From a virus, in the IMG/VR virus record IMGVR_UViG_3300031851_004359, positions 1 to 29,164 of that record: 29,164 nucleotides of DNA; one strand, written 5' to 3'. A program made the translations under genes and the position numbers. This document shows positions 2,490-27,315 of this stretch, one piece after another. The number at the start of each line of letters is the position of its first letter. Position 1 is the first letter of the stretch. Under the pieces are notes generated by a model. The model ran no database searches. It saw only the letters and a list, made by a program, of their open reading frames with translations, and had not been told where the DNA came from.

Positions 2490-2680
2490 ATAACAAATAT
2501 GATGGACCACTTGTAAGTGCGTTTAATACTGATCCAGAAGGTGTTATTAAACAAGAACTAATTACATATCGAATCAAAGATGGTATGCTACGTAAAGAAA
2601 CAACGTCACGTAGATTTAATAAAGATCAAACTGACTGGCACGATTCACAATCAACAGATCCTATGATGGAGGTCAAATAA
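2486..2680 (+). CDS. Hypothetical protein, 64 aa
   Basis: A 64-residue hydrophilic protein with many charged residues in its second half ([16 protein letters not shown]). It is coupled by a four-base overlap with the upstream gene and a one-base overlap with clpP, with a GGAGG-type ribosome site for clpP inside its last codons. No recognisable domain. Confidence 0.75.
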
Positions 2681-3297
2681 TGCCCTTAGTACCTATGGTA
2701 GTTGAGCAAGAAGCTCGCGGAGAACGTTCATACGATATTTACAGTCGTTTGATGAAAGACAGAATCATTATGCTTAATGGTCCTGTAGAAGATAATATGG
2801 CAAACTTGATTGTAGCACAAATGCTATACTTAGAAAGCGAAAATCCTGACAAGGACATTAACTTGTATATTAACTCGCCAGGTGGCGCTGTAACAGCAGG
2901 GTTGGCTATCTATGACACCATGCAGTACATCAAGTCGCCAGTACGTACTATTGTAATGGGGCAAGCATGTTCAATGGGATCGTTCTTAGCAATGTCAGGA
3001 ACAGCAGGCAAGCGTGTAGTACTACCAGAGTCGCGTACAATGATTCATAGAGTAAGCTCAGGCACACGAGGCACTTCAGGAAGTGTACATGTACAAGAGC
3101 TACAGTTTGAAGATGCACAACGAGCGTTCGAAGAGTCCAAGAAAGTAAACAAGCGTCTTACAGAGCTTTATGTTAAGCATAACACAGCTGGTAAGAAATA
3201 TGACGAACTGTTTGAAACTATGAAGTTTGATACATTCTTAACAGCACAAGAAGCCGTTGAGCATGGACTTGCTGATATGGTTGTGGAGAAACGATAA
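2680..3297 (+). CDS. clpP: ClpP-family serine protease
   Basis: A 205-residue ATP-dependent Clp protease proteolytic subunit. The catalytic triad appears to be complete: Ser98 in GQACSMGSF, His123 in TMIHR, and Asp184 in [10 protein letters not shown]. The INSPGG oxyanion segment (64-69) is present. The distance between the catalytic His and Asp is about 12 residues longer than in Escherichia coli ClpP, because of a Ser/Gly-rich insertion just after the His (about 126-136). Phage ClpP homologues are known in marine phages. The role may be host-protein turnover with host ClpX/ClpA, or capsid maturation; the sequence does not decide. It is embedded in a coupled operon with one-base overlaps on both sides. 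Confidence 0.93.
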
Positions 3298-3874: not shown

Positions 3875-4304
3875 AATTTTAGCAACAGTAGCAATGTTTG
3901 GATTTATGTCAACCAGTGCAGTAGCAGAAACAGTACAAGATCATTATAAAACTATTACTAATCGTGTACCTTATACTGAACAAGTATGTAATTGGGTTGA
4001 TGTACCTATTTACGGACAAAGCAGTGGCAACGCAGGTGAAGGTGCATTGCTAGGAATGATCCTAGGTGGAGTAACTGGTAAAGTACTTGGTGGTAACGAC
4101 AAAGGTGCGGCAGCTGGTGCAGTTATTGGAGGCATCATTGGTGCTGATAAATCGCAAAGTAAAAAAGGTATCATTGGTTACAAACAAGAACGTAGGTGTA
4201 CAGACTACACACGTTATAATGAACAACAACAACAAGTTTACAGTCATTCAACTGTAACTTTTAACAGTGACGGAAAAACTTATACACTAAGTTTTAAGAA
4301 ATAA
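3867..4304 (+). CDS. Secreted glycine-zipper protein (17 kDa antigen-like)
   Basis: A 145-residue exported protein. An N-terminal signal peptide (K3, hydrophobic core, AVA-E cleavage near residue 20) is followed by about 30 residues with one Cys. A glycine zipper then spans about residues 50-92, with alternating GxxxG spacing (GALLGMILGGVTGKVLGG and GAVIGGIIGADK). A Gln-rich stretch and a short beta-like tail end the protein. Glycine-zipper 2TM proteins of this type (for example the rickettsial 17 kDa antigen and SlyB-like proteins) lie in the Gram-negative envelope. No lipobox Cys follows the signal sequence, so it is probably periplasmic or membrane-inserted rather than a lipoprotein. It is the last gene of the clpP operon, two genes before a TonB-dependent receptor. 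It may alter the host envelope or block superinfection (inference). Confidence 0.8.
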   Translation: MNKILATVAMFGFMSTSAVAETVQDHYKTITNRVPYTEQVCNWVDVPIYGQSSGNAGEGALLGMILGGVTGKVLGGNDKGAAAGAVIGGIIGADKSQSKKGIIGYKQERRCTDYTRYNEQQQQVYSHSTVTFNSDGKTYTLSFKK

Positions 4305-4307
4305 ATA
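4300..4307 (+). promoter_or_regulatory. Possible late-promoter box AATAAATA
   Basis: AATAAATA overlaps the stop codon of the glycine-zipper gene, eight bases before tRNA-Ser. It fits the T4-type late box, but the short distance and AT-rich context make it uncertain. Confidence 0.3.
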
Positions 4308-4314
4308 TAGAATA

Positions 4315-4404
4315 GGAAGATTGGCTGAGTGGTCGAAAGCACCGGTTTACTAAACCGACGAAGGGGTAACTCTTCCTAGGGTTCGAATCCCTAATCTTCC
4401 GCCA
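4315..4404 (+). tRNA. tRNA-Ser, anticodon ACT
   Basis: A full class II cloverleaf. The acceptor GGAAGAT pairs with ATCTTCC, the D arm is GCT/AGC, the T arm is TAGGG-TTCGAAT-CCCTA, and the long variable arm has GAAG/CTTC. Discriminator G73 and an encoded CCA follow. The anticodon loop is TTACTAA, giving anticodon ACT, which reads AGT (Ser). The top pair of the anticodon stem is a C27-A43 mismatch. Bacteria normally use GCT for the AGY box, so A34 is unusual. AGT is visibly frequent in the phage structural genes. Confidence 0.92.
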
Positions 4405-4414
4405 ATTACGGCAA

Positions 4415-4489
4415 TGGAACGTAGCATAATGGTAATGCATCGCTTTTTGGTAGCGCAGAGTATAGGTTCGAGTCCTATCGTTCCAGCCA
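4415..4489 (+). tRNA. tRNA-Gln, anticodon TTG
   Basis: Acceptor TGGAACG pairs with CGTTCCA, the D stem is GCAT/ATGC, the anticodon loop is TTTTGGT, and the T arm is ATAGG-TTCGAGT-CCTAT. Discriminator G and an encoded CCA follow. The 5' U1 is typical of tRNA-Gln. The first anticodon-stem pair (T27-C43) is mismatched. It reads CAA. Confidence 0.93.
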
Positions 4490-4497
4490 AATAAACT

Positions 4498-4571
4498 GCG
4501 GGTGTTGTGTAATGGTAAGACCTTAGCCTTCCAAGCTAATGATAGGGGTTCGATTCCCCTCACCCGCTCCA
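4498..4571 (+). tRNA. tRNA-Gly, anticodon TCC
   Basis: Acceptor GCGGGTG pairs with CACCCGC, the anticodon arm is TTAGC-CTTCCAA-GCTAA, and the T arm is AGGGG-TTCGATT-CCCCT. U73 is the expected Gly discriminator, and CCA is encoded. It reads GGA and GGG; GGA is common in these genes. Confidence 0.95.
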
Positions 4572-4593
4572 ACTTACTTGAAAGGTAAAAATA

Positions 4594-4839
4594 TTGGGAA
4601 GAGTCTTTATTGAAGAAGCAATGGATGCCACTGGCATTAATAGAACGAACTTAGTTGGAGTATGTACTCATCTAGTTCGAACAAAACAAGCAAGTAGTGC
4701 CGGAGATGCACTAAGAAGGCTCGAAGCAGGAGAATTTGATCGTTTAGATCTAGAAGAACAAATGATTGAATACTATCAAATTGAAAAACCAAAACCTGAA
4801 GTTGTCGTTTTAGACGAAGACGAAGGAGATCATGACTAA
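4594..4839 (+). CDS. Hypothetical acidic protein between tRNA genes, 81 aa
   Basis: An 81-residue protein with a helical N-terminal half (FIEEAMDATGINRTNLVGVC) and a strongly acidic tail (EVVVLDEDEGDHD). The best start is the TTG at 4594, with AAAGG about 10 bases upstream; an internal ATG at 4621 would give a protein nine residues shorter. It lies between tRNA-Gly and tRNA-Thr, so its mRNA probably comes from the same processed transcript. The N-terminal half could be a small helix-turn-helix-like fold, but I see no clear family signature. Confidence 0.65.
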   Translation: MGRVFIEEAMDATGINRTNLVGVCTHLVRTKQASSAGDALRRLEAGEFDRLDLEEQMIEYYQIEKPKPEVVVLDEDEGDHD

Positions 4840-4849
4840 GTAATTTGTT

Positions 4850-4925
4850 GCCCCTATAGCTCAGCTGGTAGAGCAACGCATTTGTAATGCGTAGGTCCGC
4901 GGTTCGAGTCCGTGTGGGGGCACCA
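4850..4925 (+). tRNA. tRNA-Thr, anticodon TGT
   Basis: Acceptor GCCCCTA pairs with TGGGGGC (one G-U pair), the D arm is GCTC/GAGC, the anticodon arm is ACGCA-TTTGTAA-TGCGT, and the T loop is TTCGAGT. Discriminator A73 and an encoded CCA follow. It reads ACA, a frequent codon in the fibre genes. Confidence 0.95.
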
Positions 4926-4940
4926 GTTCTTATAAAATAC

Positions 4941-4969
4941 TTGACATACTAAAATAAGTATGTTATTAT
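4941..4969 (+). promoter_or_regulatory. Sigma70-type promoter for the TonB-dependent receptor gene
   Basis: TTGACA at 4941-4946, a 17-base spacer, and TATTAT at 4964-4969. The receptor ATG is only seven bases after the -10 box, so a transcript starting at the normal place would have almost no leader. This predicts either leaderless translation or use of a longer transcript from upstream. Confidence 0.75.
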
Positions 4970-4975
4970 ACAATT

Positions 4976-6637
4976 ATGAAAACATATCTATTATTATTCA
5001 CAGCTCTTGCTGTGTTTTTTTGTGGCCGTGTTTCTGCTGAAGACCCAATGTATGTACATGTGCCATGGGATTGTAAATGGACAGACAATCCTCCTTGCAT
5101 AGTTATACCTGTAAGCAATTCGAATAAACTTAACGATCAAATTAGCCCTACATACAAGATATCTAAAGCCGAAATGCAAAAATATAACCTAATTGATTTG
5201 CCTAGTGTAATGAACTTTGTTCAAGGCGCAGATATAGCACAGTCAGGTCCAATAGGACAACAGGCAAGTATATTTGTTAGAGGTACAAATTCAAATCATA
5301 CACTTGTATTGTTAAACGGTATTCCAATTAATGACGCTAGTACACCAACAGGCGCACACGACTTTGGACAAGACTTTATGTTCAATGTGCATCAAATTGA
5401 AGTGTACAAAGGCAGTGCAGGCGCTCACTATGGCGCAGACGCAATAGGAGGTGCTGTAAACTTTGTAACAACAGTTAACTACCAAAAGAAAATTAGTGCT
5501 GATGCAAATACCATTGACGGCAATTATTATTGGAACACATCAAATGATTGGGACATTAGCGTATCAGGTGGAATGCATGAAAGCGAAACGCAGTCTGCTC
5601 TAGCAGGTGCTGACGAAACTGATGGTGTGAAAAATAAAACACTTGGTATAAACGTAAGTAAGTGGCTAGATTATAATTTAAATTTCACAAGCAGTCTATT
5701 TACAAGAAACACACTTACTGAAATTGACGGACACAGTCTTAGCATACAAGAAGACAAGTGGAGCGACAATACTTTTTATGCTTTCCAAACTGGACTTACA
5801 TCTTACAATACATATGGCACAAGCTCATTAGTAATGCACACACACGAATATGATAGGAAGTATGATGACGCAGACTACAGTAGTAATTCTGTTGCAATCA
5901 AAGGAGAACATAAAAAAGATAATTGGGGAGTTGGGTTTGATTGGAAACATGACATCTCAAGTGCTAACAGTCTATGGGACACGTCTGACACTAATTGGCA
6001 CAACTTAGGATTTTTTGCAAACTATAGTTATGACATATTTTCATATCATTATAGAATAGACGAAGAGTATGATAGTTATAAAATAGGATTCTTACAGCCT
6101 ATTACAGATAACTTTACCCTTAGAGGAAATCATTCAACAGGATATAAAAACTCAACTCGATATACTGATGTTGAACATTCTAACACACAAGAATTAAGTT
6201 TTGACTATAAACAGTTTACAACTACATTGTTTCAAAGTGACATTGGAGATTTAAACACGCAAGGAATTGAACTAGGATATATAAAAGATAATTTTAGATT
6301 TTTTGCAAGCCATTTAGATAGTAAGGTAGGTAGTACTCAACAACTTAGACGTCCTAACTTAACTGTAGGATTTTTACATAGTGTTGATTTAGAAGAAGAT
6401 ATGACTTTAAATACAAACTACAAATACAAAGGCAATCATCTTGATATACACAATAGTAACTGGAGTACAATCTCAATGCCTGAAGTACATTTGTTAGATG
6501 TTGGAATTACAAAACATTGGAACGGAATTGGATTTAGTGCAATGTTTAATAATGTACTAGACTATAACTATGAATCACCGCACGGATTTAGCCAAGAAGG
6601 TAGAACATTCAACTTATCACTAAGCACTAACTTCTAA
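4976..6637 (+). CDS. TonB-dependent outer-membrane receptor (BtuB-like, compact)
   Basis: A 553-residue receptor of the family that imports cobalamin, haem or siderophores across the outer membrane using TonB energy. It has a signal peptide (residues 1-21, ending VSA-E), and a possible TonB-box-like stretch CIVIPVS near 41-47. A plug domain spans about 55-168, with IFVRGTNSNHTLVLLNGIP and the IEVYKGSAGAHYGADAIGGAVNF signature. The long remainder is rich in aromatic and alternating residues and ends in the typical closing strand GRTFNLSLSTNF with terminal Phe, the outer-membrane assembly signal. It looks intact, not a remnant. BtuB is about 614 residues, so some loops are short. The ligand cannot be read from sequence. 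The downstream genes are a zinc-ribbon protein and IscU. Codon use matches the phage, so it is not a recent host insert. Confidence 0.92.
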   Translation: MKTYLLLFTALAVFFCGRVSAEDPMYVHVPWDCKWTDNPPCIVIPVSNSNKLNDQISPTYKISKAEMQKYNLIDLPSVMNFVQGADIAQSGPIGQQASIFVRGTNSNHTLVLLNGIPINDASTPTGAHDFGQDFMFNVHQIEVYKGSAGAHYGADAIGGAVNFVTTVNYQKKISADANTIDGNYYWNTSNDWDISVSGGMHESETQSALAGADETDGVKNKTLGINVSKWLDYNLNFTSSLFTRNTLTEIDGHSLSIQEDKWSDNTFYAFQTGLTSYNTYGTSSLVMHTHEYDRKYDDADYSSNSVAIKGEHKKDNWGVGFDWKHDISSANSLWDTSDTNWHNLGFFANYSYDIFSYHYRIDEEYDSYKIGFLQPITDNFTLRGNHSTGYKNSTRYTDVEHSNTQELSFDYKQFTTTLFQSDIGDLNTQGIELGYIKDNFRFFASHLDSKVGSTQQLRRPNLTVGFLHSVDLEEDMTLNTNYKYKGNHLDIHNSNWSTISMPEVHLLDVGITKHWNGIGFSAMFNNVLDYNYESPHGFSQEGRTFNLSLSTNF

Positions 6638-6842: not shown

Positions 6843-7223
6843 ATGGCATACTCCGAAAAGGTACTTGACCATTACGAAAACCCACGCAACGTTGGAACAT
6901 TTGATCCCAAGAAAGATAACATAGGAACTGGGATGGTAGGTGCACCAGCATGTGGTGACGTTATGCGACTACAGATAGAAGTAGAAGATGGAATTATTAA
7001 AGACGCAAAGTTTAAAACTTACGGTTGCGGAAGTGCAATAGCAAGTTCAAGTTTATTAACTACAATGGTTAAAGGCATGACACTTGATAGAGCAGGTGAA
7101 ATAAAGAATATGGATCTTGCAGAAGAACTTGCATTACCTCCAGTTAAGATACATTGTAGTGTATTAGCCGAAGATGCAATTAAATCTGCGATAAAAGATT
7201 ATAAATCTAAAATAAAAGGTTGA
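6843..7223 (+). CDS. iscU: IscU Fe-S cluster scaffold protein
   Basis: A 126-residue IscU, almost the same length as the bacterial protein (about 128). IscU receives sulfur from IscS and iron, builds a [2Fe-2S] cluster and hands it to carriers. The three ligand cysteines are present: Cys37 in GAPACGDVM, Cys62 in YGCGSAIASS, and Cys105 in KIHCSVLAEDAI, with Asp39 and His104 next to them. The conserved N-terminal SEKVLDHYENPRNVG is intact. No IscS, HscA or HscB is in the window, so host partners would be needed. The LPPVK chaperone-binding motif of bacterial IscU is kept (LPPVK, 98-102), which suggests it can dock with host HscA. A late box lies upstream, and a sigma70 promoter overlaps its stop. 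Confidence 0.95.
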   Translation: MAYSEKVLDHYENPRNVGTFDPKKDNIGTGMVGAPACGDVMRLQIEVEDGIIKDAKFKTYGCGSAIASSSLLTTMVKGMTLDRAGEIKNMDLAEELALPPVKIHCSVLAEDAIKSAIKDYKSKIKG

Positions 7224-7407: not shown

Positions 7408-7410
7408 ATG

Positions 7411-7487
7411 ACTACACTACACCTTACTGCAATAAGGTGTCTTTGCAGGGACAGAGGCCTCGAAAGGGTCAAAGTTAGTGTAGTTTT
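7411..7487 (+). ncRNA. Predicted three-way-junction RNA of unknown class
   Basis: The outer stem P1 pairs ACTACACTA (7411-7419) with TAGTGTAGT (7476-7484), nine perfect pairs. Inside, P2 pairs CACCTTA (7420-7426) with TAAGGTG (7433-7439) around a CTGCAA loop, and P3 closes with CTTTG (7441-7445) and CAAAG (7470-7474) around a purine-rich 24-base interior that holds CCT-CGAA-AGG. TTTT follows P1. It starts three bases after the terminator and ends 13 bases before tRNA-Trp. I compared it by eye with purine, preQ1, TPP, glutamine and hammerhead consensus forms and found no match. It could be a riboswitch, a tRNA-processing element or a free small RNA. Confidence 0.55.
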
Positions 7488-7499
7488 AAAAAAAGTTAT

Positions 7500-7573
7500 G
7501 TCGGTGAAGTGTTACGGTAGCACGTCAGTCTCCAAAACTGAAAGCCGGGGTTCGACTCCCTGCACCGATGCCA
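7500..7573 (+). tRNA. tRNA-Trp, anticodon CCA
   Basis: Acceptor GTCGGTG pairs with CACCGAT (G1-U72 wobble), the D arm is GTGT/GCAC, the anticodon arm is TCAGT-CTCCAAA-ACTGA, and the T arm is CGGGG-TTCGACT-CCCTG. Discriminator G73, as in bacterial tRNA-Trp, and an encoded CCA follow. It reads TGG. Confidence 0.93.
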
Positions 7574-7574
7574 A

Positions 7575-7648
7575 CACTAAGTGGCAGAGTGGTTATGCAA
7601 CGGACTGCAACTCCGTGTACGCCGGTTCGATTCCGGCCTTAGTGTCCA
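7575..7648 (+). tRNA. tRNA-Cys, anticodon GCA
   Basis: Acceptor CACTAAG pairs with CTTAGTG, the anticodon arm is ACGGA-CTGCAAC-TCCGT, and the T arm is GCCGG-TTCGATT-CCGGC. U73, the key Cys identity base, and an encoded CCA follow. C1-G72 replaces the usual G1-C72. One base separates it from tRNA-Trp, so both come from one precursor. Confidence 0.93.
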
Positions 7649-7655
7649 TTTCCGA

Positions 7656-7684
7656 TTGACAAATATGTTTAACGATGTTATTAT
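7656..7684 (+). promoter_or_regulatory. Sigma70-type promoter for the DNA ligase gene
   Basis: TTGACA at 7656-7661, a 17-base spacer, and TATTAT at 7679-7684, followed by AAAGAGG before the ATG at 7713. It starts eight bases after tRNA-Cys. Confidence 0.8.
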
Positions 7685-7712: not shown

Positions 7713-9053
7713 ATGAGAACACAACCACAAGATATTATTGCAAAACTAGAAGCACACAATAGTCGTTTAGACAAAGAGTCAATACTGTTTGGTGCTATGG
7801 GCGAAGGACTAGATGAATTTTTTGAAGGTGTCACAATGGCACTTGATCCACTTGTTACATTTGGTGTAAAACAAGTACCAGAGCGTGTAGAAACACCTCA
7901 GCGTGGACAAGGTCTTATTTGGAGAGATTTCAAAGTACTTGCTAACCAACTTATCAATAGAGAGCTTACAGGCCATGCGGCACGTGATGCTATTGAATTG
8001 GTAATGAGTGTTGCTACTGTTGAACAGTGGAATGGCTTCTACAGACGTATCTTAATCAAAGACTTGCGTTGTGGTGTGAGTGAAAAGACTGTAAACAAAG
8101 TTGCTAAGAAGTTTAATCCTATGAGCGAATCAAAGTATATGATTCCTGTGTTTGCTTGTAGTCTAGCACATGACTCAGCTAATCACGAAAAGAAGATGAC
8201 TGGCAAGAAACAAATTGAAGTTAAACTAGATGGCGTTCGTGTACTAGCAGTATGCAAAGGTGGCAAAGTAGAATTGTTCTCACGTAACGGAAAACAGTTT
8301 CATAACTTCCCACACATTATTAAAGAGATCGAAAATGTATTAAGTTGCACACCTGCTCCTTATGATTGTGTACTAGACGGCGAAGTAATGAGCAAAGACT
8401 TTCAAGACCTTATGAAGCAAGTGCATCGTAAAGACGGTAAAGCTGCAACTGACTCAGTTCTACACTTGTTTGACTTTATTCCACTAGCAGACTTTCTTAA
8501 AGGTGGCTGGGATAAACCACAAACATATCGTAGTAATTTAGTTAAGTATTGGGTACTAGAAAACAATGATATCTTAGAGCATGTTACAGCGTGTGAATGG
8601 GAAGAGGTAGACCTTAGTACACCCGAAGGCAATAAACGCTTTGTAGAGCTTAATAAGACAGCCGTAGACGGTGGATATGAAGGTGTAATGATTAAAGACA
8701 TTGATGCACCCTACGAATGCAAACGTACACATGCTTGGTTAAAAGCAAAACCATTTATTGAAATTACACTAAAAGTCGTTGATGTTGAAGAAGGCACTGG
8801 ACGTAATGAAGGCCGACTTGGTGCCGTAATAGTAGAAGGAGAAGACGATGGATACAATTATCGCCTTAACTGTGGGAGCGGTTTCACTGACTCTCAACGT
8901 GATGAGTACTGGGCTGAACGTGATAATGTCATTGGTCAGCTAATAGAAATTAGAGCTGACGCAAGAACTAAGTCACAAGATTCAGATACTTACAGTTTGC
9001 GTTTTCCACGCTTTAAAACATTTAGAGGTTTTGAAGCTGGTGAAAAGATTTAA
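7713..9053 (+). CDS. ATP-dependent DNA ligase
   Basis: A 446-residue ligase that seals nicks through a lysyl-AMP intermediate. Motif I is EVKLDGVR, with Lys171 as the adenylated residue. The motif III-like VLDGEV follows, then motif IV YEGVMIKD and motif V WLKAKPF. A helical N-terminal region of about 165 residues and a C-terminal OB-fold (from about 345) complete the enzyme. The size and helical N-terminal domain resemble the T4 gene 30 ligase group (487 residues). It is first in its unit after the promoter at 7656 and is followed by hemE. Role: Okazaki-fragment joining, repair and recombination of phage DNA. Confidence 0.95.
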   Translation: MRTQPQDIIAKLEAHNSRLDKESILFGAMGEGLDEFFEGVTMALDPLVTFGVKQVPERVETPQRGQGLIWRDFKVLANQLINRELTGHAARDAIELVMSVATVEQWNGFYRRILIKDLRCGVSEKTVNKVAKKFNPMSESKYMIPVFACSLAHDSANHEKKMTGKKQIEVKLDGVRVLAVCKGGKVELFSRNGKQFHNFPHIIKEIENVLSCTPAPYDCVLDGEVMSKDFQDLMKQVHRKDGKAATDSVLHLFDFIPLADFLKGGWDKPQTYRSNLVKYWVLENNDILEHVTACEWEEVDLSTPEGNKRFVELNKTAVDGGYEGVMIKDIDAPYECKRTHAWLKAKPFIEITLKVVDVEEGTGRNEGRLGAVIVEGEDDGYNYRLNCGSGFTDSQRDEYWAERDNVIGQLIEIRADARTKSQDSDTYSLRFPRFKTFRGFEAGEKI

Positions 9054-9075: not shown

Positions 9076-10056
9076 ATGAATAAATTATTTGAAAATGCCC
9101 TAACCAGGGCAGACCAATCTTGTCCTCCGATTTGGATGATGAGACAGGCAGGACGCTATCAACCATCTTACATGTTAATGAAAGAACAATGGACATTTGA
9201 ACAAATGTGTAAACTTCCTCGTGTAGCAGCACAAGTTGCTATGTTACCTATAGAGGAATTTGACTTTGATGTTGCTATATTGTTTAGTGACATACTTTGG
9301 CACATAGAAGGATTAGGATTACCTTTAAAGTTTGATCCTGGTCCAAAGTTTGAATGGCATCTTACAGAAGAAAATTACCAAGACCATTGTGACATCGGTA
9401 AAGCAATGACACATCTTAAATTCCAAGAATATGCGATAGAATCAACTAGAGAGTTATTACCACACAAGAAAAGTCTAGTAGGCTTTGTTGGTGGACCATG
9501 GACATTGTTAAACTATGCACTAGGCGAAAACAAAGATAAAGTAAGTGACGACTTTAAGTGTATGTATCTTACAGATGTAATTATACCATTACTACAATCA
9601 AGTATAAGACATCAAAAAGCAGCAGGTGCTGATGCTGTAATGATATTCGATAGTGGACTTGCTAATATACACAAAAAGTTTTTTGATGAAAAATACTTAC
9701 CAATGTTAAAACTAATTTCTGAAATAGAAAATACAGCATACTATGCTCGAACGCTACCTTACAATAGTTTAAATAAAGTCATTGATATTGGATTTGCAGG
9801 CATTGGCATTGATAGTACAGTTGATCTTAACAAGACTCTTAACAAAGTCGAACACGGATTTGTACAAGGTAACTTTGACGAAACACTTTTGTTACAAGAT
9901 TCAGAAATGATTTTACGATACGAAATAAAAAAATGGTTAGACACTGTTGAAGATCCTCGAGGGTGGGTATGCGGACTAGGACATGGCATACTAAAAGAAA
10001 CGCCTACAAAAAATGTAAAGATATTTGTAGAAATGGTTCGAAACCACTATAGTTAA
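9076..10056 (+). CDS. hemE: Uroporphyrinogen decarboxylase
   Basis: HemE converts uroporphyrinogen III to coproporphyrinogen III, committing tetrapyrrole flux to haem (or chlorophyll) rather than sirohaem and cobalamin. The 326-residue protein keeps the substrate-pocket residues of the family: Arg23 and Arg27 in WMMRQAGRY, Asp72 in ILFSDIL, Tyr147 in GGPWTLLNY, Ser193 in MIFDSG, and His303 in GLGHGILKETP. The length is about 25-30 residues below the usual 350, mainly because of a shorter region between about 210 and 260. It uses phage-like codons and sits in line with the ligase. No other haem gene is in the window. An intact cytoplasmic enzyme is very likely; the benefit to the phage is unknown. 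Confidence 0.95.
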   Translation: MNKLFENALTRADQSCPPIWMMRQAGRYQPSYMLMKEQWTFEQMCKLPRVAAQVAMLPIEEFDFDVAILFSDILWHIEGLGLPLKFDPGPKFEWHLTEENYQDHCDIGKAMTHLKFQEYAIESTRELLPHKKSLVGFVGGPWTLLNYALGENKDKVSDDFKCMYLTDVIIPLLQSSIRHQKAAGADAVMIFDSGLANIHKKFFDEKYLPMLKLISEIENTAYYARTLPYNSLNKVIDIGFAGIGIDSTVDLNKTLNKVEHGFVQGNFDETLLLQDSEMILRYEIKKWLDTVEDPRGWVCGLGHGILKETPTKNVKIFVEMVRNHYS

Positions 10057-16150: not shown

Positions 16151-16274
16151 TGCTATACAATGGTACAAACAACTAAGGCAACATCCTGCGCACTATGCAT
16201 GGTACAACTGTATAGCGTGGGCAATTTACAATTCAGGCACACACGAACTCGATGGACAGTATAGAAAATGGTAA
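16122..16274 (+). CDS. Possible 50-aa ORF with TTG start
   Basis: A frame open from a TTG that overlaps the reductase stop to a TAA at 16272-16274, giving 50 residues rich in W and Y (HYAWYNCIAWAIYNSG). It would fill the gap between two genes by stop-start coupling and overlaps the UV endonuclease start by seven bases. No ribosome site is visible, and the same bases hold the promoter, so it may be chance. Confidence 0.3.
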   Translation: MTNFKKRVILAIQWYKQLRQHPAHYAWYNCIAWAIYNSGTHELDGQYRKW

Positions 16275-17371
16275 CTAAACGTATAGGCTTTGCATGCAAG
16301 TACATGCATCCAGATCAAACACAGAAGAAGAAAGTGCTTGAAGAAATTCAACGCCCGCTAAATACTCGTAGCACAACTGTACAGTGGCTCAATAGGCAGA
16401 CACGTGAAGTTGCTGAAGAACGCTTGTGGGAACTTATGGTTCACAACATTGCGTCATACAAAAGGTTAATTGAATATGTTGGAAGTCTTCCAATTGAACT
16501 ACGGATGGTACGGCTCGGTTCTGATGTACTTCCTGTTTATACCCAGCGCGATTGGTGCTATTATTGGCGTAAGCCTGACGTTGTGGCATATTGTGAGAGA
16601 GCGTTTGCAGAAGTCGGTGCCACGGCAAGAGCCCTTGATGTCAGACTTTCCATGCACCCTGGTCAGTTTACCGTCCTCGCCAGTGATAACCCGGACATCG
16701 TCGAACGATCAATAGAGGAGTTTGAATATCATGTTAATTGCATCAGATGGATGGGCTATGGCCAATCGTTCCAAGATTTCAAGTGCAACGTCCATATATC
16801 AGGCAGACAAGGTCCAGCCGGTATCAAACACGCAGTTGACAACAGACTATCTCCAGAAGCGAGAAACACGATCACGATCGAGAACGACGAGAACAAATGG
16901 GGCATACAAGACAGCCTCGAACTTGTCGACACATGCGCATTGGTACTCGACATACACCATCACTGGTGCCGTGAAGGTGAATATATACGTCCCACCGACG
17001 ATAGATTTGCTCGCGTAATAGATAGCTGGCGTGGTGTGCGACCTGCAATACATTATTCGTACAGCAGAGACACAGCACTACCCGAAGGCTTTACACATAA
17101 CACAATGCCTAATTTTCCTGCACTATTAGAAGCAGGACACAAGAAAGGCAAACTACGAGCGCACAGTGATTACTATCCTAACAATGCAGTCAACGACTAT
17201 GCACTATCATTCTTGCCATATGCAGATATCATGTGCGAATCCAAATGTAAGAACCTTGCTAGTATTGCTCTATATAAATACAATGAAGGAAAACAATATG
17301 AGTTATCTAAACAAAATGTACAGCAACAAGAGCTTGAACTCAGCACCCCAGAATTCAGCGGCTTCGGATAA
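16268..17371 (+). CDS. uvdE: UV damage endonuclease (UvdE/UVSE family)
   Basis: A 367-residue TIM-barrel endonuclease that nicks DNA 5' to cyclobutane dimers and 6-4 photoproducts, starting alternative excision repair. Family motifs: RIGFACKY (5-12), MHPGQF (129-134), TIENDE (203-208), VLDIHHHW (226-233), HYSYSR and AHSDYY. The metal-binding His, Glu and Asp residues are present. The last 30 or so residues (from about YKYNEGKQ) read through the start of the next gene in another frame and are probably not part of the fold. Bases about 16600-17000 have visibly more G/C-ending codons than all neighbours, which suggests acquisition from another source. Confidence 0.93.
   Translation: MVTKRIGFACKYMHPDQTQKKKVLEEIQRPLNTRSTTVQWLNRQTREVAEERLWELMVHNIASYKRLIEYVGSLPIELRMVRLGSDVLPVYTQRDWCYYWRKPDVVAYCERAFAEVGATARALDVRLSMHPGQFTVLASDNPDIVERSIEEFEYHVNCIRWMGYGQSFQDFKCNVHISGRQGPAGIKHAVDNRLSPEARNTITIENDENKWGIQDSLELVDTCALVLDIHHHWCREGEYIRPTDDRFARVIDSWRGVRPAIHYSYSRDTALPEGFTHNTMPNFPALLEAGHKKGKLRAHSDYYPNNAVNDYALSFLPYADIMCESKCKNLASIALYKYNEGKQYELSKQNVQQQELELSTPEFSGFG
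17273..17280 (+). promoter_or_regulatory. T4-type late box inside the end of the UV endonuclease gene
   Basis: Exact TATAAATA, 17 bases before the ATG at 17298, with AAGGA between. The spacing equals that of the boxes at 17593 and 27443. Confidence 0.55.
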
Positions 17372-18537: not shown

Positions 18538-18912
18538 ATGTCAATTTGTACACTAACAGACGCAGCTAAACAACAAATCGATACTATTTGTAAAGAAAAT
18601 AATGTATTTGGAGTTACTTTAAACATGAAGGGCGGCGGTTGTGCTGGCTTTGAATATGATTGGGGAACAATTAATGATGCCCGTGATATTGAAGAAGGTA
18701 GTGAACTTGTAGTAACTGAGCAGGGTAATAATTTTATTATTGGTCAGCATAGTATAATGTTTATGGTAGGAACTGTTGTAGATTACAAAAAAGATATTAT
18801 GGGATCAATGTTCGATATACAAAATCCAAATGCCCAATCAAGTTGTGGATGCGGAGTAAGTGTAAACTTTGATATGGACAAATTAGCAATACCACTTGAG
18901 ATGGAGCAATAA
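18538..18912 (+). CDS. iscA: A-type Fe-S carrier (IscA/HesB family)
   Basis: A 124-residue A-type carrier that takes Fe-S clusters from a scaffold to target proteins. The three conserved cysteines are present: Cys35 in GGGCAGF, and Cys103 and Cys105 in SSCGCGVS. A strong ribosome site (AAGGAG) precedes the ATG. The length is a little above the usual 107, with a short C-terminal tail. HesB-like genes are known in marine phages and are often beside structural genes; here its stop abuts the fibre-gene start, so both are probably co-expressed late. Together with the phage IscU it forms a scaffold-carrier pair. Confidence 0.93.
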   Translation: MSICTLTDAAKQQIDTICKENNVFGVTLNMKGGGCAGFEYDWGTINDARDIEEGSELVVTEQGNNFIIGQHSIMFMVGTVVDYKKDIMGSMFDIQNPNAQSSCGCGVSVNFDMDKLAIPLEMEQ

Positions 18913-24900: not shown

Positions 24901-27315
24901 ACAGATGACAACGATGCAACAACAAAAGATTTTGTTAGTCAAGCAGTTAGTAATTACGATGAATTAGATGATTTAAGAAACGTAACAATACACACAGTTA
25001 CAACTCCAAATAAGAGTAAACAAATACTTGCTCCTACAGGATCTCAGCGTTTAGTAGTTGAGCCAGAATCGCCAGGACTGTTTACAATTGGAGGAACTAT
25101 TACTGACGGTACAGCACAAGGTACTGTTGTAGCACTTGAATCTAGATTTGATAAAGTTCTTAATCAGAACATAAGAATTGTTACTTACAACCTAACAACA
25201 GTAGGTGACTTTAGTACTACAGCAAGTCCAATTAATAACGGAGTTGTAGGATCACCAGGTGCAACAACAGCCAATGTACTTGAGAATCCAGTAGACGAAG
25301 TTACAAACGCAGTTGAAGCAACAACAAGTGATGTCAATATTACAGTAAACAGACTAGCATCAAGTACTGAAATTGATTTACAACTTGAAGCACAATCTAT
25401 TATTAACAGCGATGTAAATGACGATGCTAACATTGCACAAAATAAAATAATGATGAATCGTGCAGGTACATTAGCTGACAGTACAGGATTACTAGGAGTT
25501 GATGGTGACGGCACAAACGGTAGAACAGGACAAACATCAAGAGGCTTAGCAGCATTTGAAGATGAAAGTTTTGCAGAAGATATTGAAATAACTGTTCAAG
25601 GTGGAACACTTACATTAATTACAGGTGATACACTTACTCAAGGAACAAACACAGGTGTTGTTGTAAATGATGTTACAAATAGCACAACTGCTCTTATTAG
25701 AACAGGTGATACTTGGGTAGCTGATGCAACTATACTTTCAAGATCAACATTTAACAATACAACTGGTGTTACAGCATCTCCGGCAAGTTTAGCTACTGTA
25801 TTTGTACAAAGTATTAAACGTACAGGTTATATAAGTTTACGAGATCGTGGAGTTGATTATGCAAAACTTCCAGAGCTTACAACTGACACAGTAATTGGTA
25901 GACAACAACCAAGCACAGGTAGAGCAGAAAGTGTAACATTTGCACAAGTTATTGATCAAGGATTAGGACTAGCAGACGGAGATTTTGCTGCTGTACTACC
26001 TTACTTCTCAAGTGGAAGTATTGTAGGTGACCCAGGGCAAATATTAGTTAAAACTGGTACTGGTGCATATAGCACAAGTGAAATAAGTTACGAAAATGAA
26101 AACACAAGTATTGCAAAACGCAGAAACGATGGAAGTTTACAAGCGACATCATTTATTGTAGGTGGTACAGCAAGTAACGTAGTACTAAGTGAAAACTTAG
26201 GCACACTATCATTTAAGACACCAGGACAAGGAACTATCCTAACAGCAAGTGGCGCAAGTAAACCAACTATTAACACAGGCGGAAATATTAAAGTTGGTGA
26301 GATGAGTGTTGCACCAACTGAAAGTACATTCCATGCTAACAGTGCTTATGGTTCAGTAGGTGGTGCAGGCACAACAGAAGAAACTAGTGCTATAGCAACA
26401 CGCTGGTTATATACTTCATTCATTGAAGCACCAAACGAAAAAGACTCAAGTGGTGCAGGTATTGGATTAGGAACAAATACAGGATTTAGTGAAGGTGGTG
26501 CTGATGTTATTACTTTTGTTACAGGCGGAACTGTAGAAGCAAAAGTTACTGGAACAGGTATTGAAACTGATGCTATTACAAGTATTAGTGACAACACTGA
26601 TTTAAATTTATCAGCAAACGGAACAGGAAGTGTTTATGTAAACGATACACTTAAACTAAGTGGCAATATTACAAAAGGCACAGGCACAATAACAGTACCT
26701 AATAATACTACAGGTACTATGGTGCTAAGTGTAAGTGATACTACAGGACAAACAGGTGTAAATCAAACCTTAAGTGCAGCTGGTAATATCAGTGCAACTG
26801 TTGACGGATTAGGTACAGCAAGTAATGTTGAATTTGGTCAAGTAACAACTACTACTATCACAACAGGTGCAGCAGCAACAGCAGGTAGCTTTACAGGTAA
26901 CTGGAGTTTAACAGCTGGATCACGTATGCAAGCAACATACGCTGACTTAGCTGAGTACTATGAAGGTGATGTAGAATACGCAGTTGGAACAGTACTTGTA
27001 TTTGGTGGCGACAAAGATGTTACACAAAGTACAGAACATCGTACAACAAGAGTAGCTGGTGTAGTAAGTGATCAAAGTGCTTATACTATGAACGAAGGAT
27101 GTCCAGGTATAAAAACACTTACAGCACTACAAGGTAAAGTTCCTGTAAATGTAATTGGAAAAGTTGCCAAAGGTGATATGTTGGTTGCAAGTGCAATACC
27201 AGGATATGCTATTGTTGACAATGATCCTAAAGTAGGAAGTGTAATTGGTAAAGCAATTGGTACTAAAGATACAACAGAAAAAGGAACAGTTGAAGTAGTA
27301 GTAGGTAGAGTATAA
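18913..27315 (+). CDS. Giant tail-fibre/structural protein, 2800 aa
   Basis: A 2800-residue virion protein, probably a long fibre. Residues 1-40 hold an anchor motif, NIGVEGNDGTGDSIRESF then KVNENFQEL, shared with the gene at 29067. FCCH-like modules (HGLxNGxxVEFxxIxGMTE...) occur at about 552-621 and 1692-1757, with a related one at about 194-256. Two helical segments, GLIVDSLRLD (about 466) and GIIVDGIVKD (about 897), are repeats of one module. A DATIVRNVTVQGHGGFM stretch near 1070 suggests beta-helix folding. Residues about 2673-2800 (YADLAEYYEGDVEYAVGTVL ... GKVAKGDMLVASAIPGYAI) resemble the self-cleaving peptidase-G2 / intramolecular-chaperone domain of other fibres. Late box at 18511. 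It begins directly after iscA. Confidence 0.88.
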   Translation: MAKQDVNIGVEGNDGTGDSIRESFRKVNENFQELYAVFGVGGQISFTTLGDTPETLEAGKLITTNSAGNAIRYSTIGSDSDLDAATDDSITVDVVSVPGKIILSTSFSALVDDNVNPTLGSHLDAANFGIAGVQISDSAATAINSQPGRSTSYTIDDLVITKGYGDRRYITSGLPIRIAAEPATRTQFTKTITNYVDGNLFISGHGYDSGANGTAFIFQAEDTDPTGITSGTTYYIRYINDDQIGLYATASQAQTESATEAANNKISVSGTIADDDSHTITDSGFDSTLEGNFLKDVGMPRDAIVRRQGDTMEGALTLFDHPGDLAGDGTPNGDADLQAATKYYVDNTAYSSPEVLFVSTAGNDSMAGVPPGKEGTANVYAYATINAAARRAAELIKTAPEEPGPYFQTLQHSSNVDSTVITAGVENPVNSITSATLRLNKAYIVAEVSNYIRYTYPTFTYNVATCERDLGLIVDSLRLDAERGNNANYLSRTAGERYYSSVSGRIAITSQKLQTDDSFRFLSEIITNAILQNKLLNEKAIQSIVRKSGDTPSLVTTTTTHGLKNGNIVEFDTIAGMTEIEGQFAFVKVIDTTSFELFTDEALTTAFDNSAYTPFVSGDIGLRYQTKFQQDTTQSAVWDGGSGGAEPNGASSVSNNVSLIRTIISNGIEAGADIAFGNRYEITMVNGTNGQLNQTDPDNVDAIPGKVLRGKRSGAIGRIITSVQDTNSTDFYLQLLEPKNFESGEEIEMGNFVKKKQITIKVESGQYEEDYPIKLTKNVSLKGDEFRRVIIRPKERISQSVYANTYFYRDKEFDGLTLTTTGTPFINQTGVEQGFFGYHYLKDNTKESNVGGAVTNLGKYSTAASIVDENKEFIQDEVIYFINTTYPSLVYNETKCRRDTGIIVDGIVKDLKNGGKEFALENQGEYYTGAVSGQETETAAAINYISTLTAQLLVATAPTKNPGTNFDPDISQGKAEPDWATGVTYKQGDFVKKGTLYYRALKNHVSAASDEDTDVLSATYQQLTDTTQWIQVTSSVTVVGQLVDVVAFAFDSDYNPPKRNDEMDVFMMDDATIVRNVTVQGHGGFMCVLDPTGQILTKSPYIQTASSFSKSENKKAFRGGMFVDAFAGNIPMRVQGNSGNYTDANGSVALNAFTLYVESQDVGGEGQGLKLRLPELPAPFYYKGQRFQVNAISNYDSGLGRAIIYLDPGSNGSNGWNFAGTDLIGAVGHDENDYNQDIFLQTAGNRSILGNDFTQINDLGYGLVTTNGAFSEMVSMFTYYTHAAYYAANGSEIRSLNGSNGYGNFGLVAEGADPNEIPDQVTTLRNMTQPVKAFTHGGLTNASGDTVLTLYDFKQEPMKNAYVTINHGGATGSLNYKITNIQNLSDSDADGVDGDTGSIVATGIETIDNSSITGTPGSDGVYAAVAQKSTTGSGVGATFTITVVSGAATAVVSNVGNGYAVGNTVTVDGGDIGGVASTNDITIPITAVYQTTAGTFSNRVYRLSIQEAGSNTDFFPDLQGNVAHDTLVEYRQGENFIFDNVDTPDISERPSTAINFDESDTTTYRSTGFTQKDDQNQDLQADETKVTFDADFNYVTPTIDYLNIGTSAPSGGGTLGNAVTDTFLAIKKLDSISATRIVQDSTNAVTQVIRNPGDAGYAGGMVFAYGGRVLQVIDYDAITKGNITAITAANPVVVTSASHNLSNGDRVEFENVGGMTELNGKNYYVNNVTTNTYELYTDSALTGTLDGTTFTTYTSGGRWADFSSVWYIETQTVASTDVNGSGAAGIRLVPTAEREIFCGLPAGATAEITVAISLLRATGHDFTEIGTGGFNTSNYPNVLLGEPIGGSNAKAPAYQDADTASKAQVWERRKGRVFFISSDNDGFFRVGKYFVVDQSTGSITFAGDVGISRAASLGFKDGVTIDEFSNDELFTDLSDTAVPTEKAVASYVSRRLGHDGTAQLTGTARFAPGFLALDGSTPLEANLNANSKQIKNLLDPTDDNDATTKDFVSQAVSNYDELDDLRNVTIHTVTTPNKSKQILAPTGSQRLVVEPESPGLFTIGGTITDGTAQGTVVALESRFDKVLNQNIRIVTYNLTTVGDFSTTASPINNGVVGSPGATTANVLENPVDEVTNAVEATTSDVNITVNRLASSTEIDLQLEAQSIINSDVNDDANIAQNKIMMNRAGTLADSTGLLGVDGDGTNGRTGQTSRGLAAFEDESFAEDIEITVQGGTLTLITGDTLTQGTNTGVVVNDVTNSTTALIRTGDTWVADATILSRSTFNNTTGVTASPASLATVFVQSIKRTGYISLRDRGVDYAKLPELTTDTVIGRQQPSTGRAESVTFAQVIDQGLGLADGDFAAVLPYFSSGSIVGDPGQILVKTGTGAYSTSEISYENENTSIAKRRNDGSLQATSFIVGGTASNVVLSENLGTLSFKTPGQGTILTASGASKPTINTGGNIKVGEMSVAPTESTFHANSAYGSVGGAGTTEETSAIATRWLYTSFIEAPNEKDSSGAGIGLGTNTGFSEGGADVITFVTGGTVEAKVTGTGIETDAITSISDNTDLNLSANGTGSVYVNDTLKLSGNITKGTGTITVPNNTTGTMVLSVSDTTGQTGVNQTLSAAGNISATVDGLGTASNVEFGQVTTTTITTGAAATAGSFTGNWSLTAGSRMQATYADLAEYYEGDVEYAVGTVLVFGGDKDVTQSTEHRTTRVAGVVSDQSAYTMNEGCPGIKTLTALQGKVPVNVIGKVAKGDMLVASAIPGYAIVDNDPKVGSVIGKAIGTKDTTEKGTVEVVVGRV

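Follow-up and report, generated by a model that had tools for sequence, protein, structure and literature searches.

The window analysed here, meaning the whole stretch of DNA, is an IMG/VR virus record of 29,164 bases. Analysis of its genes revealed a BtuB-like TonB-dependent outer-membrane receptor located between a group of tRNA genes and the genes for IscU and a DNA ligase. The features of the region are as follows.

2680-3297, plus strand: ClpP-like protease, a backbone gene (64.5% identity to jumbo phage PA5oct)
3867-4304, plus strand: exported glycine-zipper protein, a backbone gene, 5' of the tRNA genes
4315-4925, plus strand: tRNA-Ser, -Gln, -Gly and -Thr genes, left border of the cargo site
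4594-4839: open reading frame of 81 amino acids among the tRNA genes
4941-4969, plus strand: sigma-70-type promoter, TTGACA-17-TATTAT (promoter scan; equivalents in contigs L001, L002 and L004)
4976-6637, plus strand: BtuB-like TonB-dependent outer-membrane receptor, 553 amino acids (open reading frame, PF07715, TIGR01779, BtuB profile 3e-46, Foldseek)
4976-5038, plus strand: signal peptide, residues 1-21 as read by eye, MKTYLLLFTALAVFFCGRVSA, modelled with a hydrophobic helix at residues 2-16
5132-5455, plus strand: plug domain, residues 53-160 (PF07715, 1.9e-19), the best-conserved domain in the phage clade
5615-5728, plus strand: stretch with Glu214, Asp216 and Asp251, aligned to BtuB Asp193, Asp195 and Asp230 (63-receptor alignment; invariant columns)
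6843-7223, plus strand: IscU Fe-S scaffold, right border of the cargo site (TIGR01999 above cut-off)
7713-9053, plus strand: ATP-dependent DNA ligase, a backbone gene with more than 400 viral relatives
9076-10056, plus strand: HemE-like uroporphyrinogen decarboxylase (PF01208, 8e-64; TIGR01464, 5e-60, below cut-off)
18538-18912, plus strand: IscA/SufA-type Fe-S carrier

Two further open reading frames are probably not genes: 4294-4572 on the minus strand overlaps tRNA genes, and 7408-7659 on the plus strand, conserved in relatives (up to 100%), overlaps the tRNA-Trp and tRNA-Cys genes, so that its conservation is probably that of the tRNAs. A UvdE-like UV endonuclease gene (16268-17371) is unlike the remaining window in composition (GC 0.45, codon z 9.1), although relatives have it as part of their backbone.

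The receptor open reading frame spans exactly 4976-6637 on the plus strand, begins with ATG, has no internal stops and ends in phenylalanine. An earlier sequence-only reading had described an intact receptor with signal peptide, plug and terminal phenylalanine, and the open reading frame, the Pfam match and the sequence agree with that description and with the coordinates given. The N-terminal plug by which TonB-dependent receptors are recognized was found by Pfam (PF07715, E 1.9e-19), while no match to the Pfam barrel model was reported for this protein. The AlphaFold2 model (pLDDT 76, pTM 0.77) consists of a plug and a large barrel and resembles BtuB along its full length (TMq 0.76-0.80), the mark of the class being a barrel of 22 strands closed by the plug. 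Codon usage in the gene is that of the remaining window (z 1.1), as had been noticed from the sequence. Comparison with its 87%-identical relatives gave dN/dS values of 0.058-0.073, and the gene is thus under purifying selection (dN/dS about 0.06). In the phage clade, conservation is higher in the plug (0.75) than in the barrel (0.61).

The backbone of the window is nearer to jumbo phage PA5oct than to T4, and a T4-like identity was therefore rejected; a second backbone protein also found its best matches in PA5oct-type phages, and one contig related to the window measures 267,783 bases. The IscU, HemE-like and IscA/SufA-type genes are among the backbone genes of this PA5oct-related marine phage family, which is abundant but little described. 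Contigs from metagenomes other than that of the window (L001, L002/L003 and, in part, L009) show the same order of glycine-zipper protein, receptor, other cargo where present, iscU or tRNA region, and ligase, with ClpP upstream of the glycine-zipper protein wherever the contig extends that far. The receptor is missing in at least 15 relatives that contain both flanks, the site being occupied in some by different cargo (a ring-hydroxylating oxygenase, for example), and a profile search of 30 records related to the window found none. Since relatives retain both flanks without it, the receptor is optional cargo in the window's PA5oct-related family, inserted between the tRNA genes and iscU-ligase. 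Recurrent synteny in other metagenomes and viral contigs with relatives bear out the claim that it is phage-encoded, and it is truly phage-borne. As is expected of a virus-encoded auxiliary metabolic gene, an intact gene of host type that a viral backbone carries but that neither virion nor replication requires, it is optional cargo on a conserved backbone, is under purifying selection and has a cellular sister clade.

Relatives of the receptor (27-91% identity) occur in more than 70 IMG/VR contigs with several phage backbones. The protein query retrieved 10 viral loci and the alignment 70, with more from a second, more distant clade, and the full-length viral copies are open reading frames. 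T4-type capsid genes were found in only three receptor-bearing contigs; others have genes for ribonucleotide reductase or late genes of unrelated kinds, and confinement of the receptor to T4-like phages is thus not supported. Among 50,697 phage records no full-length relative was found, only plug-level matches, and these seem to be bacterial sequences misplaced among the phages (Salmonella and Acinetobacter scaffolds, for example). The window receptor matches phrog_5687, a PHROG without assigned function. In a tree of 63 receptors, phage clade A (17 rows, including the window) is sister to BtuB of SAR11 with 100/100 support, and phage clade B falls just outside this pair; the tree is limited by its long branches and by sampling through sequence patterns. 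The window is nested in a clade whose members have B12 riboswitches. A haem oxygenase gene (PF01126, 5.5e-16) lies near a clade B receptor at L010:12145-12678 on the minus strand. Fe-S assembly genes near receptors comprise a SufE-like gene (L008:7097-7507, by eye), a SufT-like gene (L008:9609-10007) and a SufC-like gene (L042:8045-8782, by eye); these would suit radical-SAM enzymes.

Among TonB receptors with a known structure, BtuB is the nearest to the window receptor both by profile and by fold. A profile of the phage relatives searched against PDB ranked BtuB first over its full length (6e-31; 3e-46 in another run, in which the colicin I receptor followed as the next family at 1e-23). All top six Foldseek matches of the window model were E. 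coli BtuB (2gsk, 6.6e-26), with TMq 0.78 for 1nqh, BtuB with bound B12. The best NCBIfam match was a B12 receptor family, TIGR01779 or NF007926, in six of six receptors tested. The TIGR01779 score of the window receptor (102 bits) is far under the curated cut-off of 599.7, and the protein is therefore filed as BtuB-like, outside that equivalog. The positions corresponding to BtuB 179, 193, 195, 230 and 241, which we take to be the calcium-binding aspartate cluster ordering the cobalamin loops, were compared in the alignment of 63 receptors. Positions 195 and 230 are aspartic acid in all phage and SAR11 receptors; position 193 is glutamic or aspartic acid (glutamic acid in the window); position 241 is aspartic acid in 16 of the 17 clade A receptors, the window included; and Asp179 is replaced by serine in all phage receptors. 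Clade A receptors have a conserved segment, PC-[LIV]-x-I, with no match to the DTLVV TonB box of BtuB.

Upstream of the window gene, six nucleotides separate the end of the TTGACA-17-TATTAT promoter from the ATG (shuffle p 0.002). Because a general promoter scan of the region showed no excess (10 such sites against 9.6 expected), the case for this promoter is built on its position and conservation: L001, L002 and L004 have equivalents 6-9 nucleotides upstream of their receptor ATGs. The receptor mRNA is accordingly predicted to be leaderless or nearly so. The gene does have a promoter of its own, as had been proposed; that it is an early one is suggested by its sigma-70 form. No AdoCbl-II riboswitch was found upstream of 4976, the best score within the window being 13 bits at 27135, and scanning with the riboswitch model showed it to be absent from the nearest relatives as well. 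Since the promoter leaves no space for a leader, the window lineage has apparently lost repression by B12.

Among the relatives, an AdoCbl-II riboswitch was identified with a model built in this study upstream of the receptor, or of a DUF6580-receptor pair, at 30 of 72 loci; the 1.04 Mb of sequence gave no further match. Where Rfam itself reports the riboswitch, RF01689 scores 71.7-85 bits against a gathering threshold of 36.5. Covariation is strong, with compensatory changes in 14 of 23 pairs; the folding energy of single sequences is not unusual (z about -1). In the converse test, 2.9 million viral contigs were scanned for a DNA pattern of the riboswitch; this returned 30 contigs (24 already known, six checked by hand), and all 30 have this receptor downstream. 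In the main group the riboswitch ends 17-20 nucleotides before the ATG and a GGAGAC-type ribosome-binding site lies in a small hairpin loop, as expected if translation were repressed. Kissing-loop control of this kind has been described for two riboswitches, that of E. coli btuB and env8 (PMC10653944). A sequence taken to be that of the env8 hydroxocobalamin riboswitch (class II) has exact matches at L021:9824-9925 and L307:1680-1781, upstream of phage btuB, and this riboswitch may be a phage btuB leader.

Genes of a single B12-type radical-SAM cluster are found no more than three genes away from the receptor in 39 of 40 cases, where chance would give 14.6; these counts come from kindred loci and hence not from independent events. 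Such genes accompany the receptor in 11 of 17 dereplicated lineages, in varying orders and orientations. The best NCBIfam matches of these neighbours are B12-dependent radical-SAM families (KedN5, 2.5e-75, for that of L053), and several match the B12-binding domain weakly or not at all (L008, L016). No B12 enzyme, radical SAM included, was found across the 29 kb of the window. DUF6580 (PF20221) adjoins btuB in phages (L063, L064, L065, L010 and other clade B members) and in SAR11 (L073-L147), and the pair often lies within a B12-riboswitch operon. It is modelled as a small helical membrane protein (pLDDT 91). The fold search gave no significant structural match, and an assignment as an ECF S-component was set aside for that reason, the two highest TM-scores listed (0.56 and 0.45, not significant) being to such components; DUF6580 is a candidate component of an inner-membrane B12 transporter.

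The nearest cellular relatives found are Pelagibacteraceae (SAR11) loci in which the riboswitch, btuB, DUF6580 and radical-SAM genes are adjacent or near one another and which sit inside bacterial chromosomes. The scans of genome contigs were limited by their patterns: those of clade A found nothing, and those of clade B found SAR11 and others. The relationship suggests that the phage receptor was acquired from SAR11-like bacteria; this would not fix the host, least of all for the PA5oct-like family of the window. No MetH was found in 12 SAR11 genomes. A B12-dependent ribonucleotide reductase was rejected as B12 user, as the score of the SAR11 gene does not reach the NrdJ cut-off; in one locus it is followed by a gene that reads as NrdB-like, and the enzyme looks like class I. 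With MetH absent and the reductase class I-like, radical-SAM proteins seem to be the B12 users of SAR11. Of 12 partial SAR11 genomes, eight have ExbD, whereas a search of 12 viral records found no copy.

Overall, our analysis suggests that the window encodes a phage-borne, bacterium-derived BtuB-type receptor that imports B12 for the infected cell, an explanation we consider probable as a whole. After injection the receptor would be transcribed from its own sigma-70 promoter and its product exported to the outer membrane of the infected cell, where it would bind extracellular cobalamin, whose passage to the periplasm would be driven by the host's TonB-ExbB-ExbD. More B12 would then be available during infection for B12-dependent radical-SAM enzymes and possibly for other host or phage enzymes, to the presumed benefit of the phage. 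In many relatives the AdoCbl-II riboswitch would turn the receptor off when B12 is plentiful; in the window, with a start-proximal promoter and no riboswitch leader, it would be made regardless of B12. Cobalamin is most likely the substrate of the receptor. The riboswitch-bearing relatives are very probably B12 receptors and that of the window is probably one, an assignment that draws on kinship, conserved positions and fold; as the window has neither riboswitch nor radical SAM, we infer its substrate from kinship. We also propose tentatively, at rather less than even odds, that phages borrowed a B12 module of riboswitch, receptor, in some cases DUF6580, and radical-SAM users, and that the window lineage exchanged the riboswitch for a leaderless promoter and continues to import B12 when the host would stop.

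The sequence-only reading had offered cobalamin, haem or iron as the imported nutrient, and of these cobalamin is favoured by profile, fold and riboswitch. It might nevertheless be that in the window lineage the BtuB scaffold has come to import haem, one of its precursors or a siderophore, in supply of hemE, iscU and iscA. With iscU only 200 nucleotides downstream, hemE, iscA and an FNR-like reductase in the same window, a haem oxygenase near the receptor in L010 and no B12 riboswitch in the window lineage, such a change of substrate has something to recommend it. However, iscU and the ligase, and in many cases hemE and iscA, belong to the backbone and are present also without the receptor, so that their closeness to it is unspecific; haem and siderophore receptors rank under BtuB by profile and by fold, and the window is nested inside the clade with B12 riboswitches. 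Retargeting is accordingly unlikely in our judgement.

We give still less credence to a receptor that imports nothing and serves as a decoy or replacement, blocking superinfection by phages, or attack by colicin-like toxins, for which the host BtuB is the way in. Phages commonly dock on TonB receptors, some phage proteins are known to block such receptors, and the gene is optional cargo, but its best-conserved domain is the plug, which transport requires and a surface decoy does not. Riboswitch control by B12 and linkage to B12-type enzymes in the relatives fit B12 supply and not exclusion, and additional copies of the receptor might even increase superinfection; the suggestion of a superinfection block found no positive evidence. 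BtuB-type receptors are normally bacterial, and a bacterial gene might have been fused to phage DNA by mis-assembly or captured by chance without being maintained. This is exceedingly improbable: the junctions recur unchanged in contigs from further metagenomes (L001, L002, L003 and L009), the more than 70 viral relatives form clades separate from cellular genes, dN/dS is 0.06 and codon use is that of the phage. A join of two genomes, or relatives in bacteria only, had been named as what would overturn a phage origin; the recurring gene order and the viral relatives argue against both.

If B12 import by the infected cell is accepted, a widespread viral B12 receptor would turn infected cells into B12 sinks, and vitamin uptake would join the processes under phage control; riboswitch and B12-user linkage in many relatives suggests that viruses feed B12 to infected cells. 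Scavenging is the only source of B12 for many ocean bacteria, which are unable to make the vitamin themselves (PMC9296465). The riboswitch makes the prediction of the substrate unusually specific and directly testable, the unnamed viral family phrog_5687 gains a likely function, and a phage origin is offered for some marine AdoCbl-II riboswitches. The usual idea is reversed, in that a type of outer-membrane receptor typically attacked by phages is here made by one. The open-access literature yielded no description of BtuB in a phage, of a phage B12 riboswitch or of both together. A survey of pelagimyophages gave no riboswitches (PMC7029224), a viral curli channel was speculated to import cobalamin (PMC9599517), and a 'TonB-dependent receptor protein' in Polarivirus skadi was taken as a hint to the receptor of that phage (PMC10504331).

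Comparison with known systems is as follows. The SusC-like receptor of the marine megaphage Mar_Mega_1, mentioned briefly and without further study in PMC9723777, is likewise a TonB-dependent receptor annotated in a marine phage; it differs in its 805 residues, its carbohydrate (SusC) type and its 10% identity to the window receptor in structural alignment. It is probably the entry A0A8D9FQQ5 ('TonB-dependent receptor SusC [uncultured marine phage]'), which gave the only strong structural match in BFVD (2.2e-15). The AdoCbl-II (AdoCbl-variant) riboswitch RF01689, listed as 'Marine' only in PMC2864571 and with no statement on phage occurrence found in the open-access literature, is present in 30 of the 72 relatives and absent from the window. 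The SAR11 riboswitch-btuB-DUF6580 locus (L073, L074, L083, L102 and others), sister to phage clade A, shares with the phage relatives the riboswitch class and the N-terminal CxW...PC signature, and in several cases has a radical-SAM gene nearby. Its btuB is about 30% identical to the query from clade B and is chromosomal, among core and surface-polysaccharide genes, whereas the window has neither riboswitch nor DUF6580. With E. coli BtuB (TIGR01779/NF007926; 1nqh, 2gsk), the best match by profile and fold, the window receptor shares the plug and the predicted barrel at 18-19% identity in structural alignment. It is about 60 residues shorter; the phage receptors lack Asp179 together with its loop, have no recognisable DTLVV TonB box and, in clade A, carry the CxW...PC signature at the N-terminus.
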